A stretch of DNA of 48,110 nucleotides from an uncultured Lachnospiraceae bacterium. Lineage in GTDB: Bacteria; Bacillota; Clostridia; Lachnospirales; Lachnospiraceae. Below the pieces are notes generated by a model. It saw only the letters and a list, made by a program, of their open reading frames with translations. It was not told the DNA's origin and made no database searches. Shown here one piece after another: positions 1 to 16,397 of this stretch (positions within the stretch are counted from its first letter, which is position 1; each line of letters starts with the position of its first letter). Where the stretch lies: the NCBI GenBank assembly GCA_902761225.1, contig CACWJQ010000016.1, forward strand, positions 1 through 48,110, read 5' to 3'. The position numbers and the translations under genes are program-made.

Positions 1-567
1 GTGGGATGCTTCTCCTTCTATCCCTCCAAGAATATGGGTGCATTCGGAGATGCGGGCGCATGCATATCAAGAGATCCCGAACTGATAAAGAAGATCAAGG
101 TGCTGAGGAATTACGGCTCCGGCAGGAGATACTATAACGAGGTGGTGGGAGTCAACAGCAGACTCGATGAGATGCAGGCAGCCCTCCTTTCCGTAAGGCT
201 CAAGTACCTTGATGAGATCACGGAAGAAAGGGAAAGGATCGCTGCCGTTTATGACGGGAAGATCACCAATCCGGACATCATAAAGCCCGAACAGATCCCC
301 GGGGGAAATGCGGTTTATCATCAGTATGTCATCCGCAGCAGCAGGCGTGATGAGCTGATAGAGTATCTGAAGGATAATTATATCGGAACGATAATACACT
401 ACCCCGTACCCCCTCACCTTCAGGAGGCATATGCTTATCTCGGGTACAAAAAGGGAGATCTTCCGATATCGGAAAAGTATGCGGATGAAGTACTGTCTCT
501 CCCGATATATAACGGCATGACACGGGCAGAACAGAACTACATTATTGATGTACTGAACGCCTTTTAA
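1..567 (+). CDS. DegT/DnrJ/EryC1/StrS-family aminotransferase, C-terminal part (5' end outside window)
   Basis: The reading frame is open from the first base, so the gene begins upstream and only the last 188 residues are visible. They match the C-terminal half of PLP-dependent sugar aminotransferases (DegT/DnrJ/EryC1/StrS). The segment [15 protein letters not shown] near the left edge carries the lysine expected to bind PLP, and the following [19 protein letters not shown] and LDEMQAALL are typical of the family. Members convert keto-sugar nucleotides to amino sugars for surface polysaccharide. It ends with TAA and is followed at once by a terminator, so it is the last gene of its operon. 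The exact sugar substrate cannot be read from this fragment. Confidence 0.9.
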
Positions 568-597
568 CAGCTTCACAATAAATCAATAGATTATATT

Positions 598-640
598 AAA
601 TCAGGTCAATTTTGCCACCGGGCAGAGTTGACCTGATTTT
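598..640 (+). terminator. Rho-independent terminator after the DegT gene
   Basis: A 12-bp stem (598-609 with 627-638) encloses a 17-nt loop, and the right arm runs into TTTT. It lies 30 bases after the stop codon and separates the aminotransferase gene from leuA. Confidence 0.85.
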
Positions 641-679
641 ATGCATATTTTCAGCATTTTCGGGCAGTCTATATATGAT

Positions 680-713
680 TACATTAAAATTAATCAATAA
701 AATACATTAAAAT
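680..713 (+). repeat. 11-bp direct repeat upstream of the leuA promoter
   Basis: TACATTAAAAT occurs at 680-690 and again, identical, at 703-713, so the period is 23 bp, about two helical turns. The second copy ends five bases before the proposed -35 element. Direct half-sites about 21 bp apart next to a -35 box are the usual arrangement for AraC-family activators. The downstream gene encodes an AraC-type domain, so an autoregulatory site is plausible; that link is inference. The region is AT-rich, so chance repetition is possible. Confidence 0.6.
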
Positions 714-718
714 CGCTC

Positions 719-747
719 TTGATTTTCAAATATCATAGTGCTATGGT
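719..747 (+). promoter_or_regulatory. Candidate sigma-A promoter of leuA
   Basis: TTGATT at 719-724 and TATGGT at 742-747 are 17 bp apart. The match to consensus is moderate (4 of 6 in each box), as expected for an activator-dependent promoter. It is the best-spaced pair between the upstream terminator and the leuA start. Confidence 0.4.
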
Positions 748-766
748 TGCTTTATCAAAAAGCAAA

Positions 767-785
767 GCGAAAGATTAATCTTCGC
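767..785 (+). promoter_or_regulatory. 19-bp inverted repeat just before the leuA ribosome site
   Basis: GCGAA-AGATT / AATCT-TCGC forms a near-perfect palindrome with no loop, ending 14 bases before the ATG and just before the GGAG ribosome site at 791-794. It could be an operator in DNA or a small hairpin affecting ribosome access. No regulator can be named from sequence. Confidence 0.4.
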
Positions 786-799
786 GGTTAGGAGTAGAA

Positions 800-2665
800 A
801 TGAGCAAGGTAAAGGTCAGTGAAAAATACAAGCCGACATATCACATGCCTCCGGTATGTGAGCATAACTGGGTAAAGAAGGATCGCATTAAGAAGCCCCC
901 CATCTGGTGCAGCGTAGACTTAAGAGACGGCAACCAGGCACTTATCGATCCCATGAGCCTTGAGACCAAGCTCGAGTTCTTCAAGCTGCTGGTGGACGTG
1001 GGATTTAAGGAGATCGAAGTCGGATTCCCCGCTTCATCCGATACCGAATTCGAGTTCATCAGGGCGCTTATCGAGAAGGATATGATCCCCGATGATGTCA
1101 CCATCCAGGTGCTGACCCAGGCAAGAGAGCATATCATCCGCAAGACCTTCGATGCGGTAAAGGGATGCCCCAAGGCCATAGTTCACCTTTATAATTCAAC
1201 CTCCGTCGAGCAGAGGGAGCAGGTATTCAAAAAGGAGAAGTCGGAGATCAAAAAGCTTGCCGTTGACGGGGCTAAGCTCCTCAAGAAGCTCGCTGATGAG
1301 ACCGACGGAAACTTCATGTTTGAGTACAGCCCCGAGAGCTTTTCACAGACAGAGCCGGAGTTTGCACTCGAGGTATGCAATGCGGTCCTGGATGTATGGA
1401 AGCCCACACCGGATAATAAGGCCATCATCAATCTTCCCTCCACCGTACAGGTTGCAATGCCCCATGTTTTTGCGGATCAGATCGAGTATATGTCCGATAA
1501 CCTGAAGTACAGAAAGGGAGTTGTGGTATCCGTTCATCCCCACAATGACAGAGGCACCGGCGTTGCGGATGCCGAGCTGGGCGTTCTTGCAGGTGCAGAC
1601 AGAGTTGAGGGAACACTTTTCGGAAACGGTGAGAGAACAGGTAACGTGGACCTGGTGACCGTTGCACTCAATATGACCACACACGGAGTGGACAGCGGCC
1701 TTGATTTTTCCAATATAATGAAGATCCGTGCAGACTACGAGAGATTCACCAATATGAAGGTGCACGAGAGAACTCCTTACGGCGGCGACCTTGTATTTAC
1801 CGCATTCTCGGGTTCACACCAGGATGCCATCAGCAAGGGAATGAATTACCGCGCAGAGGGCAAGACCGGAAAGCGCTGGGATATCCCCTATATTCCCATC
1901 GATCCTTCGGACGTCGGAAGAGAGTATGAATCCGATGTCATCCGTATCAATTCCACCTCGGGTAAGGGAGGCGTTGCATTCGTGCTCAAGCAGCAGTTCG
2001 GCTTCAGCCTGCCCGCTGCCATGAAGGAAGAGGTGGGATACCTGATGAAGGGCGTATCCGACAGAAAGCACAAGGAACTCAAGCCCGATGAGATGTTCCA
2101 GATATTCGAGGATGTATATATCACATCCAGACCTGTTTTCGATGTCTCAGCAGTTCACTACAAGCAGCTTGGAGAGGGCGGCATCGAGGCATCGGTAAGC
2201 TTTAAGGATAAGGGCGGAGAGATGGATGTCTCCACCATCGGAAACGGAAGACTCGATTCCGTGAGCAATGCCCTTAAGCTGTATCTGGGAGTTGATTACG
2301 AACTCACCGGATATGAGGAGCATGCGATCTCTAAGACCAGCTCCTCCAAGGCGGCATCCTATGTGAGCGTTGTCTCTGAAGGCAAGACCTACTGGGGCGT
2401 CGGAGTGAACGAGGATATCATCAAGGCTTCAACTGCGGCACTTGTCAGCTGTGTCAACAAGGTAGCCACCGACCAGCATGTCAACAGGGGACGTGAGGAG
2501 AGGCTTGTGGAGATCCTCACATACATCCAGAGGAATTCCATCTGTCCAGGCCTTATCTGTCAAAATACATCAAGGATAAAGCAGGCGAGACCTTCCAGGA
2601 TGTGGTCCGCATCGAGAGACTTAAGCGTGCCAAAACACTGCTCAAGGATACGGGTAAGAGCATAG
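800..2665 (+). CDS. leuA: 2-isopropylmalate synthase with frameshifted AraC-type C-terminal extension
   Basis: First committed step of leucine synthesis: condensation of 2-ketoisovalerate with acetyl-CoA. The ATG at 800 follows a good GGAG site. Residues 1 to about 552 cover a whole enzyme of the longer LeuA type: DLRDGNQ (40-46) at the start of the TIM barrel, the metal motif HPHNDRG (about 246-252), GNGERTGNVD (about 275-284), then the dimer/regulatory domain ending near CVNKVA. The chain then continues into REERLVEILTYIQRN (to residue 579), which looks like the start of an AraC-type HTH. After that the frame is wrong: 28 further residues are nonsense up to the stop at 2665, while the rest of the HTH is encoded one frame away. 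The catalytic part looks intact, so the enzyme may still work. Confidence 0.88.
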   Translation: MSKVKVSEKYKPTYHMPPVCEHNWVKKDRIKKPPIWCSVDLRDGNQALIDPMSLETKLEFFKLLVDVGFKEIEVGFPASSDTEFEFIRALIEKDMIPDDVTIQVLTQAREHIIRKTFDAVKGCPKAIVHLYNSTSVEQREQVFKKEKSEIKKLAVDGAKLLKKLADETDGNFMFEYSPESFSQTEPEFALEVCNAVLDVWKPTPDNKAIINLPSTVQVAMPHVFADQIEYMSDNLKYRKGVVVSVHPHNDRGTGVADAELGVLAGADRVEGTLFGNGERTGNVDLVTVALNMTTHGVDSGLDFSNIMKIRADYERFTNMKVHERTPYGGDLVFTAFSGSHQDAISKGMNYRAEGKTGKRWDIPYIPIDPSDVGREYESDVIRINSTSGKGGVAFVLKQQFGFSLPAAMKEEVGYLMKGVSDRKHKELKPDEMFQIFEDVYITSRPVFDVSAVHYKQLGEGGIEASVSFKDKGGEMDVSTIGNGRLDSVSNALKLYLGVDYELTGYEEHAISKTSSSKAASYVSVVSEGKTYWGVGVNEDIIKASTAALVSCVNKVATDQHVNRGREERLVEILTYIQRNSICPGLICQNTSRIKQARPSRMWSASRDLSVPKHCSRIRVRA

Positions 2666-2766
2666 AGACCGTAGCGGGTGAGATCGGATATGAGAATGTT
2701 GAGCACTTCAACAGGCTCTTTAAGAAGACCTACGGAATAACCCCTGCCCAGTATCGTAAGAGCTGA
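2539..2766 (+). pseudogene. Out-of-frame AraC/XylS-type HTH remnant belonging to the 3' end of leuA
   Basis: Reading from base 2539 gives 75 residues beginning HLSRPYLSKYIKDKAG and ending GITPAQYRKS before TGA at 2764-2766. This is the C-terminal two thirds of an AraC-family DNA-binding domain, including the signature GYENVEHFNRLFKKTYG. It has no start codon or ribosome site of its own. The missing first HTH helix begins in the leuA frame as ILTYIQRN. Comparison with the usual spacing between YI.EN and FHLS in AraC domains suggests about 13 codons plus one base are absent at the junction near 2536-2538. Either a deletion broke a leuA-araC fusion gene or the sequence has an assembly error here. 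Confidence 0.85.
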
Positions 2767-2788
2767 GGCATCCGGGCAGCTGCAGTTT

Positions 2789-2833
2789 ACAGACATGTCT
2801 GATTGAAGTATCATCAGACATGTCTGTGTTTTT
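2789..2833 (+). terminator. Rho-independent terminator after leuA
   Basis: ACAGACATGTCTGAT at 2789-2803 pairs with ATCAGACATGTCTGT at 2813-2827, a 15-bp stem with a 9-nt loop, followed by GTTTTT. It comes 22 bases after the stop of the AraC-like frame, not after the premature stop at 2665, so the original gene probably ended at 2766. Confidence 0.85.
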
Positions 2834-2885
2834 ATTGAGGTCTCCTGATAAGGGAGACATATGTGATTTGAATGTGAGGGATCAA

Positions 2886-3758
2886 GTGAAGGGCTGGTTG
2901 ATAGTTAATTCATTCGTTAAGTGGGACAAGTTCAGCGAGATATACGAGCTTCTCCTTGAAGCCGGTTTCTCCAAGGGCATAGACCTTGAGATGAAGTCTT
3001 CCACGGATATATTCTGCAGCGTGCAGAGCGGATTTGAGGGAATGGAGCTTCCCGATTTTGTAATATTCTGGGACAAGGACATACTTCTTGCAAGGCGTCT
3101 CGAACAGGCGGGCCTCAGATTATTCAACCCCTCAGAAAGCATCGAGGTGTGTGACGATAAGGGGCAGACTGCCATAGCCCTTCAGGCAAAGGGAATAAGG
3201 ACTCCGCTGACATTCCTGTCACCAAAGGCCTATCCCAGCTTCGGATGCACCGATCTGTCATTTCTCGATAAAGCGGAAAGCGTTCTGGGATATCCCATGG
3301 TGATCAAGGAAAACAGGGGTTCCTTCGGAAAGCAGGTACATCTTGCACATGACAGAAGGGAAGCGGAGGAGCTTATTGAAGGCTTTAAGGAGCATCCCTT
3401 TATCATGCAGGAATATATCGCGGTATCAGGCGGCAGGGATGTAAGGATCAATGTTGTAGGGGGCAGGGTAGTAGCCTCCATGTACCGCTACAATGACAAT
3501 GACTTCAGGTCCAATATCACAAACGGCGGAAGCATGAAGAAATATGATGCGGATCCCGCCCAGGCCGAGATAGCGGTAAAGGCATGTGAAGCCATAGGGC
3601 TGGACTTTGCGGGAGTGGATGTACTGTTCGGAGAGGACGGTCCGATCATATGCGAGGTCAATTCCAACCCTCATTTTAAGACCACCCTCGAATGTACGGG
3701 GATCAATATGGCAGAGCATATAATGGCTCATATTCTTAAGGTTATGAACGGGGAATGA
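2886..3758 (+). CDS. RimK-like ATP-grasp ligase (first of a tandem pair)
   Basis: A 290-residue protein of the ATP-grasp fold, closest in appearance to RimK-type ligases that join an amino acid to a carboxylate using ATP. Visible features: an N-terminal strand GWLIVNSFV, the ATP-binding lysine region VIKENRGSFGKQ (about 138-149), PFIMQEYI, and the metal-binding end CEVNSNPHFK (about 256-265). The frame stays open to an ATG at 2820, but that codon lies inside the leuA terminator hairpin. I chose GTG at 2886, preceded by GAGGG and giving the usual MKGWLIV start. The next gene follows closely and is a diverged paralogue. The substrate is unknown; ribosomal protein, cofactor tail or peptide modification are all possible. 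Confidence 0.82.
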   Translation: MKGWLIVNSFVKWDKFSEIYELLLEAGFSKGIDLEMKSSTDIFCSVQSGFEGMELPDFVIFWDKDILLARRLEQAGLRLFNPSESIEVCDDKGQTAIALQAKGIRTPLTFLSPKAYPSFGCTDLSFLDKAESVLGYPMVIKENRGSFGKQVHLAHDRREAEELIEGFKEHPFIMQEYIAVSGGRDVRINVVGGRVVASMYRYNDNDFRSNITNGGSMKKYDADPAQAEIAVKACEAIGLDFAGVDVLFGEDGPIICEVNSNPHFKTTLECTGINMAEHIMAHILKVMNGE

Positions 3759-3790
3759 ACCCGGACAGTACTGACGGTATAGGACCTATG

Positions 3791-4657
3791 ATGAAGAATA
3801 AGGCTCTCCTCATCTATGCGCATGAGGATATGGAAAAGAATAAATGGTTCACCGGGCGCCTTACAGAGCTTGCAGGAAAGCAGGGCACGGAGCTTAAGCT
3901 TGTTACGCCGGAAGATATCGGGTCGGGAATGTCCGGAACCGGTAATGCTGATCCGGAAAGCCTGTGGGAGGGCGTGTCATATATCATCAACAGATCGAGG
4001 AATGCGGAGATCTCAAAGCTGTCGGAAAAACACGGCATCCCTTCCTTTAATAATTCAGCCACTGTGCTGATGGGAAATGACAAGCTTTTTGAGTATGATC
4101 TTTTCAGGGAAATGGGACTGCCTGTCATGGAGACGGTCCGGGGAGATGCTTTCGAAGAAGAGATACCCTTTGATCCTCCCTTTATCGTAAAGCACAGAAG
4201 GGGACACGGCGGCAGCAGGGTGCTTATGGCTTCCTCCCATAAGGATGCTCTTGATAAAATGCAGGGCACGGAGCCTTCGGAGTGGATCATACAGAGAATG
4301 TGTGATGAACCCGGATGCGACATGAGGCTGTACATGCTGGGCGGAAAGGTTCTGGCCGGCGTGCTCAGAAGGTCCTTTGATGACTTCAGGAGCAACTTCA
4401 GCCTCGGAGGCAGAGCGGAGTCTGTGATGCCTGATGGGGAGATATGTGAAAAGGCCTGCAGGATCTCGGAGCGGCTTGGTGCTGATTATATAGGGATAGA
4501 CCTGATACGGCACGGAGGAGGATTTGTTTTCAACGAGATCGAGGATGCGGTAGGCGCAAGGATGCTCTATGAAGTATCGGATCTTGATGCGGCCGCTTTG
4601 CTGATGGACCACATTTATGAAAAAACTTTTCAAATAAAAGAAAATGGGATAAAATAG
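3791..4657 (+). CDS. RimK-like ATP-grasp ligase (second of a tandem pair)
   Basis: A 288-residue ATP-grasp protein related to its upstream neighbour. It starts with a beta strand (KALLIYAHED) and shows FIVKHRRGHGGSRV (about 131-144) as the ATP-binding segment, WIIQRM, RLYMLGGKVLAGVLRR, and a C-terminal metal region NEIEDAVGARMLYE (about 248-261). This last motif differs from the CEVNSNP form of the neighbour, so the two enzymes probably do different ligations. The start is uncertain: ATG 3791 has AGGA six bases upstream, but an earlier in-frame ATG at 3755 overlaps the previous stop (ATGA), which would couple translation. No peptide or protein substrate gene is evident nearby. Confidence 0.8.
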   Translation: MKNKALLIYAHEDMEKNKWFTGRLTELAGKQGTELKLVTPEDIGSGMSGTGNADPESLWEGVSYIINRSRNAEISKLSEKHGIPSFNNSATVLMGNDKLFEYDLFREMGLPVMETVRGDAFEEEIPFDPPFIVKHRRGHGGSRVLMASSHKDALDKMQGTEPSEWIIQRMCDEPGCDMRLYMLGGKVLAGVLRRSFDDFRSNFSLGGRAESVMPDGEICEKACRISERLGADYIGIDLIRHGGGFVFNEIEDAVGARMLYEVSDLDAAALLMDHIYEKTFQIKENGIK

Positions 4658-16313: not shown

Positions 16314-16397
16314 GCGGGTATGGCGAAATAGGTAGACGCAAGGGACTTAAAATCCCTCGGGGGCGACTCCGTGCCGGTTCGAGTCCGGCTACCCGCA
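16314..16397 (+). tRNA. tRNA-Leu (anticodon UAA)
   Basis: An 84-nt class II tRNA. The acceptor stem GCGGGTA (16314-16320) pairs with TACCCGC (16390-16396), with A as discriminator base. The D-arm has GGTAGAC, the anticodon stem AGGGA/TCCCT surrounds loop CTTAAAA with anticodon TAA at 16348-16350, a long variable arm follows, and the T-arm holds GGTTCGAGTCC. CCA is not encoded (TTT follows). It reads UUA and, with wobble, UUG leucine codons. It lies 27 bases after the GH13 stop and 34 bases before the next gene, with no obvious promoter of its own. Confidence 0.97.

Follow-up and report, generated by a model that had tools for sequence, protein, structure and literature searches.

One published account (PMC6978683) presents PutA and BirA as enzymes that double as transcription regulators of their own genes. 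The protein described here, LeuA-HTH, likewise carries an enzyme and a DNA-binding domain in one chain, and control of its own pathway genes is predicted for it; it differs from PutA and BirA in enzyme, pathway and DNA-binding fold, and its likely switch is the feedback-inhibition pocket of the enzyme. NadR and Ada are also enzymes that act as transcription regulators; Ada has an AraC-type HTH too, but is a DNA-repair protein. AraC itself has a sugar-binding half, and members of the AraC family vary in the sensor half. LeuA-HTH shares with the AraC/XylS proteins the C-terminal double HTH (HTH_18) and direct half-sites, the lower of which overlaps the −35 element, whereas a whole biosynthetic enzyme stands in for the sensor half, the sugar-binding part known from AraC is missing, and the half-sites are spaced by 22–23 bp. 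Compared with long-form LeuA (NF002991; PDB 1sr9, 3fig), it has the same enzyme domains, catalytic motifs and regulatory domain, and adds an AraC-type HTH of ~100 residues after the leucine domain. The T-box leader (RF00230) controls the same gene, but is an RNA element after the promoter; the box described below lies before it and occurs also where a T-box is not seen, as at the present locus. That enzymes regulate their own genes is already known (PutA, BirA), and what is new is the box upstream of fused leuA; among the literature matches listed (titles and abstract beginnings, with most subscription papers outside this scope), a LeuA–AraC fusion is not described.

In the window (the whole stretch of 48,110 nucleotides that we analysed), an open reading frame at 800–2665 (+ strand, 621 aa) encodes a full-length 2-isopropylmalate synthase (LeuA), which the remnant of an AraC-type HTH, ending at 2766, follows out of frame. 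Its Pfam domains are HMGL-like (residues 35–310), IPMS_D2 (330–397) and the leucine-binding LeuA_dimer (426–555); it scores 791.5 bits with NF002991, the NCBIfam model of long-form LeuA (cut-off 455), and is the sole leuA match in its genome. The positions 800–2536 (+) hold leuA and the first helix of the fused HTH (REERLVEILTYIQRN); past the break, the LeuA frame reads a tail out of frame (2537–2665, +), and the HTH_18 remnant, recognized by Pfam, continues in the other frame at 2533–2766 (+), stop included, with 61.4 bits over 2602–2763. After the HTH stop lies a likely terminator, a hairpin followed by a U tract at 2788–2828 (+), which stands out by its folding energy (−25.1 kcal/mol, z −5.6) and was not listed by a simple terminator scan of 500–3000. 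The first-pass annotation had read this region as a complete synthase, then an AraC HTH one frame away, then a terminator after the HTH stop at 2766; the reading frame and the HTH lie where it had put them, Pfam confirms both, and the hairpin with its U tract agrees with the third point.

The intact form of the gene is widespread in relatives. LeuA and the HTH are encoded in one frame (~667 aa) in 28 of the 30 other genomes of the genus, too regularly for a chance join: the LeuA C-terminus was matched in 29 of the 31 genus genomes, its own included; all 28 other matching genomes read in frame through the full HTH (one locus, L008, being cut at the start by a contig end); and the two genomes with no match are 79% and 83% complete. 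Across the family, 67 of 299 genomes contain the one-frame fusion, counted where residues 1–4 to 138–140 of a 140-residue LeuA–HTH query were matched within one open frame of at least 660 aa. These single-frame fusions bear out two earlier proposals, namely that one gene once spanned LeuA and the HTH and that relatives would have a LeuA of ~650–660 aa with a C-terminal AraC domain; neither of the findings that had been named as contrary to them (no relative fused, or a separate araC gene in all relatives) was made. A collection of named genomes holds at least 80 fused loci (the best 80 of 290 qualifying stretches), with Coprococcus comes MSK.16.63, Petralouisia muris and Lachnospiraceae bacteria GAM79 and 3-1 as named carriers among the matches listed. 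The order sample gave matches in 17 of 295 genomes, every one from the same family and its own genome among them; the class sample in 13 of 391, three from other families (G1154, G1284, G1286); and the phylum sample in 4 of 398, with G875 outside the class. By these counts the fusion appears rare outside the family, and the four distant carriers possibly obtained it by gene transfer. A plasmid collection gave zero matches to window positions 2300–2900.

In four of four intact proteins, Pfam finds HMGL-like, IPMS_D2, LeuA_dimer and HTH_18 in that order, the last with 74.6–80.7 bits (cut-off 33.6); the LeuA domains alone stand N-terminal to the HTH in these four proteins, and a sugar-binding sensor half like that of AraC was not found in them. 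Both the catalytic motifs and those of the leucine domain align with the M. tuberculosis enzyme of known structure (1sr9), and RDGNQ, HPHND and others, which we take to be the catalytic motifs of LeuA, are invariant columns in 65 proteins. Both HTH units have many positions that are invariant or nearly so; the nearest PDB kin of the HTH by sequence are 3oou, 6swi, 3lsg and AraC (2k9s). In 11 pairs of relatives, dN/dS over the last 97 codons is 0–0.055 in every pair, compared with 0.004–0.046 for the enzyme part; in 7 of these pairs the HTH exceeds the enzyme part, but both values are very low, and the codon comparison shows strong purifying selection on the HTH. The span between N553 (LeuA) and Y598 (HTH) has the same length, 46 residues, in each of 65 proteins; therefore, the join tolerates no insertions or deletions there, and a fixed-length join of this kind would fit rigid coupling better than a loose tether. 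The best NCBIfam model ends before the HTH, so that the fused proteins are likely named just 2-isopropylmalate synthase and the regulator is easily missed.

The gene of the window departs from this pattern at the junction, 2530–2538 (+), where 37 bases of the intact relatives are absent, the exact point being ambiguous owing to a short repeat. Compared with the intact relative L187, the missing bases lie between near-identical short repeats (AGAGGAATT / AGATGAATT in L187), and their absence removes ~12 residues and shifts the frame; the first-pass annotation had suggested a loss near 2537, or else a wrong assembly, and put it at ~40 bases and ~13 residues. The HTH remnant of the window has dN of 0.012 and dS of 1.26–1.41 against two relatives and therefore was apparently under selection until very recently; it follows that the break is either recent or an assembly error, i.e. 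a recent slippage deletion in the strain or a wrong assembly. We put the chance that it is a mere assembly or sequencing error, and that the strain has an intact gene, only a little below even: the remnant looks selected to the present, and the source genome is in 106 contigs, but the absent stretch lies exactly between two short near-repeats, as a slippage deletion would leave it, and two other genomes are also frame-broken at the junction, though these may be errors as well. In these two, the HTH is intact in another frame (G091, locus L354, +1; G108, locus L355, −1 at a run of eight A), and boxes of 18.8 bits (G091) and 13.5 bits (G108) lie upstream of the broken leuA. Error, fresh mutation and programmed slippage would look alike in these two sequences; at the run of eight A in G108, slippage could even yield both forms. 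If the break in the window is real, the enzyme of this strain should still function and its regulator should not, and the operator remains.

The candidate operator was recognized in aligned upstream regions of the genus, which contain repeated TTAAAAT boxes. An EM motif built from 99 upstream regions and seeded with TTAAAAT converged on ATTAAAATAARTCAATAA, a conserved box in front of the fused genes; the gain was 770 bits, compared with 99, 108 and 110 bits for three shuffled sets. Within 260 bp, 71 of the 99 training regions had a site above 5 bits, and most of the others had one further upstream. With a line of 11 bits, fixed before the controls were run, the box was present within 900 bp of the start at 94 of 96 fused training loci, the window included (L095 and L165 fell below it); six repeat loci and five with less than 250 bp upstream had been left out before this count (of the five, L163 has a site, L077, L117 and L118 are without one, and L134 was unscanned). 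Held-out fused loci had the box in 25 of 29 cases (17/20 and 8/9), the remainder scoring 9.5 (L381), 7.7 (L386), 8.7 (L393) and 7.6 bits (L401); this set excludes L388, a copy of the training locus L097, and counts L375, L391, L392 and the truncated L360 as fused by their C-termini. The held-out carriers from other families of the class, G1154, G1284 and G1286 (L394–L396), have boxes of 24.7, 13.1 and 19.1 bits, and G875 (L189) has one of 17.5 bits.

None of 40 distinct unfused leuA genes has the box: the best score was 10.9 bits in 24 rows, of which 15 are a distant LeuA type, and 6.7 bits in 16 new ones; L372 repeats L300, and L308 ends early, so that its unfused label is unsure. The 24-row control and the scores for ilv and other targets use a different background that runs ~2 bits higher (the window site has 23.6 versus 21.5 bits), an inflation that works against the box claim in the 24-row control and for it in the ilv scores. 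Both strands were scanned in the training set and the 24-row control, and the + strand only in the held-out set and the 16 new unfused genes. At 78 loci, the 65.6 kb preceding fused leuA contain 76 sites of more than 15 bits and the other 794.9 kb contain 1, a contrast that is in part one of composition, the DNA elsewhere being mostly coding. The box is thus present and absent together with the HTH, and the link between operator and leuA is well supported by sequence. This candidate operator, which follows the HTH across genomes, lends support to the earlier suggestion of a second role for the intact protein, in transcriptional regulation.

At the window locus, half-site 1 (ACATTAAAATTAATCAATAA, 681–700, +, 21.5 bits in the EM motif scan) is followed 23 bp downstream by half-site 2 (704–723, +), located by alignment of relatives with its position read from the sequence, which overlaps the −35 element of a likely promoter at 719–747 (+). 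This promoter, assigned by eye and aligned in relatives, consists of TTGATT, a 17-nt spacer and TATGGT with a preceding TG (extended −10); the scan list for 500–3000 does not contain the TTGATT/TATGGT pair. The tandem layout recurs: 49 of 92 loci have a second TTAAAAT-like half-site 22 or 23 bp downstream, and 56 of 92 have one at spacings of 19–28 versus 7 of 92 at control spacings of 40–49; at the 4-bit line, 36 of 92 have none. In the aligned loci, the second half-site runs into the −35 region; judged by eye, one clade has −35 elements that are weak or almost missing, and the −10 looks extended. A further box lies 73–75 bp below the first in L112, L135, G115, G220 and G325. An inverted repeat at 594–643 (+), 88 bp above half-site 1 and with a box-like left arm (593–612, 13.5 bits), could be either a distal operator pair or the terminator of the upstream gene; in several relatives, an inverted repeat lies 87–88 bp above the promoter box, and by eye its arms co-vary between subclades.

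In long-form LeuA, leucine occupies pockets where the two regulatory domains meet, and a loop closes over it (PMC11057210). In the fused protein, a full 2-isopropylmalate synthase has its leucine-binding, dimer-forming C-terminal domain joined by the fixed-length linker to an AraC-type double HTH that probably binds the box at its own promoter. Because leucine binds at the regulatory-domain interface with loop closure and the HTH directly follows that domain, leucine binding may reposition the two HTHs of the dimer; the binding that inhibits the enzyme would then also alter DNA binding, and a single leucine pocket would govern both the activity and the synthesis of the enzyme. We propose with good confidence that one chain serves as enzyme, leucine sensor and AraC-type regulator at its own promoter, the fused enzyme probably controlling its own gene. 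The leucine-free form is more likely an activator, switched off by leucine, because the lower half-site overlaps a weak −35 element before an apparent extended −10; AraC at araI1-I2 is the model for an activator with a half-site at −35.

The main rival to the activator reading is that the fused protein represses its own gene, sitting on the −35-overlapping site with leucine as co-repressor and shutting out RNA polymerase while leucine is abundant. Amino-acid pathways are usually repressed by their end product; the overlap of the lower half-site with −35 would suit such a repressor, and the further box 73–75 bp below the first, present in some loci, could lie near or past the start site. A weak or near-absent −35 and an apparent extended −10, as judged by eye, are more typical of an activator-dependent promoter, and we regard autorepression as possible, though less likely than not. 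Of a wider model we are less sure than of the main reading: it is somewhat doubtful, though by no means improbable, that the locus forms a homeostat in which the leucine pocket that shuts off the enzyme also switches the protein in its role as transcription factor, both at the leuA promoter and, in some species, at ilv genes, with the frame breaks here and in G091 and G108 perhaps uncoupling the two. If true, leucine synthesis would join the short list of pathways whose enzyme regulates its own gene, and the logic would be readable, the allosteric pocket of the enzyme doing the work of the AraC sensor half; direct tests of the model are offered by the operator, by sister genomes in which the HTH was lost and by the frame-broken copies.

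Its spread through genus and family and the selection on its HTH show the fusion to be real and old. Its history was followed in two quick trees, both made without bootstrap. In the first, built from 120 LeuA cores, all 96 fused rows group in a single clade (SH-aLRT 100) that also contains an unfused row, L300; in the second, of 97 rows, all 70 fused rows fall on one side (support 99, a short branch at the midpoint root), together with the unfused rows L356, L359 and L372 (L300 again) and the split gene L354. The three nested unfused rows are without the box (−6.8, −1.9 and 2.5 bits); therefore, the HTH and the box seem to have been lost together, a statement to be taken with caution for L359 and L372, which are on long branches. 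The split gene of G108 has box and HTH yet groups with unfused rows in the second tree, which means that this row is wrongly placed or that the fusion predates the main clade; a single origin of the fusion is accordingly not certain.

The same losses bear on whether the HTH still binds DNA. Enzymes can retain domains for structure, and the HTH might have become a structural or oligomer-forming tail, the box belonging to another regulator; we consider this improbable, given that the box occurs in 0 of 40 unfused leuA genes, that the three nested unfused rows are without both box and HTH, and that both HTH units are invariant or almost invariant at many positions. The idea that relatives carry the HTH as an araC gene of its own, with the junction peculiar to the present locus, deserves practically no credence, for although G091 and G108 have the HTH in another frame directly 3′ of leuA, nothing in the genus speaks for it, and the single-frame fusions already counted in genus and family refute it, ruling out a separate HTH gene in the genus.

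Searches for further targets of the fused regulator gave few candidates. An exact half-site search of the window genome returned 4 matches, one of them at leuA, versus 1 for the reversed pattern, and 50 versus 25 over eight genomes; single half-sites elsewhere therefore mean little. A tandem pattern with up to 3 mismatches matched 32 times versus 13 for the control in 18 other genomes; 15 of the 18 were matched, and 12 had their top match (10 genomes) or one tied for the top (2 genomes) above leuA. On the ~2-bit-high scale, boxes above ilv genes score 20.8 (G013), 17.5 (G006), 11.9 (G008) and 10.6 bits (G021), and 9.6–9.7 bits in G009, G019 and G022; in some sister species, the fused protein thus probably controls ilv genes as well. 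Directly above ilvB and ilvN, the box is absent in the window genome and its near kin, so that leuA is the only convincing target here. Across genomes, self-control thus appears to be what recurs, with ilv genes now and then as a second target. For the window genome, we rejected a large regulon in view of the four half-site matches versus one in the control and the bare ilvB/ilvN upstream regions.

We also considered whether the box could be part of a T-box RNA, and rejected this: of the 96 fused loci, 20 show the bulge motif of a T-box, and in 19 of these 20 the box lies 273–477 bp above the bulge motif, i.e. before the RNA leader, the exception being L095, which has the bulge motif and no box. 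The Rfam model RF00230 matched at three of eight loci tested (L105, L125, L141); L108 and L114 have a bulge motif below the Rfam threshold, and in L135, L173 and L187 the bulge motif was not found. In the window, no T-box was found at the RF00230 gathering threshold.

Several minor observations accompany these results. In G022 (L194, 1405–1517), two boxes of 24.8 and 24.7 bits (~2-bit-high scale) face each other before a gene for a peptide-binding transporter protein, a possible extra target; in G018 (L284, 3022–3041), a reverse-strand box of 15.6 bits on the same scale lies 71 bp before an 837-aa gene that heads an ilv cluster. By family, four places of pattern matches are a peptide-binding protein beside a GGDEF protein, a HAD hydrolase with an acyltransferase, a rubrerythrin and an ion channel; among the other pattern matches, no gene family was noticed twice. 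The window genome has tandem acetolactate synthase small subunits (165 and 166 aa) before ilvC (L280, 7177–8255), and relatives have genes of similar length in their place. A tRNA-Leu gene (anticodon TAA) at 16314–16397 shares the window with leuA, probably by coincidence. Directly 3′ of leuA lies a tandem pair of RimK-like ATP-grasp genes (2820–4657), the first of which is also found 3′ of leuA in the relatives L008 and L031.
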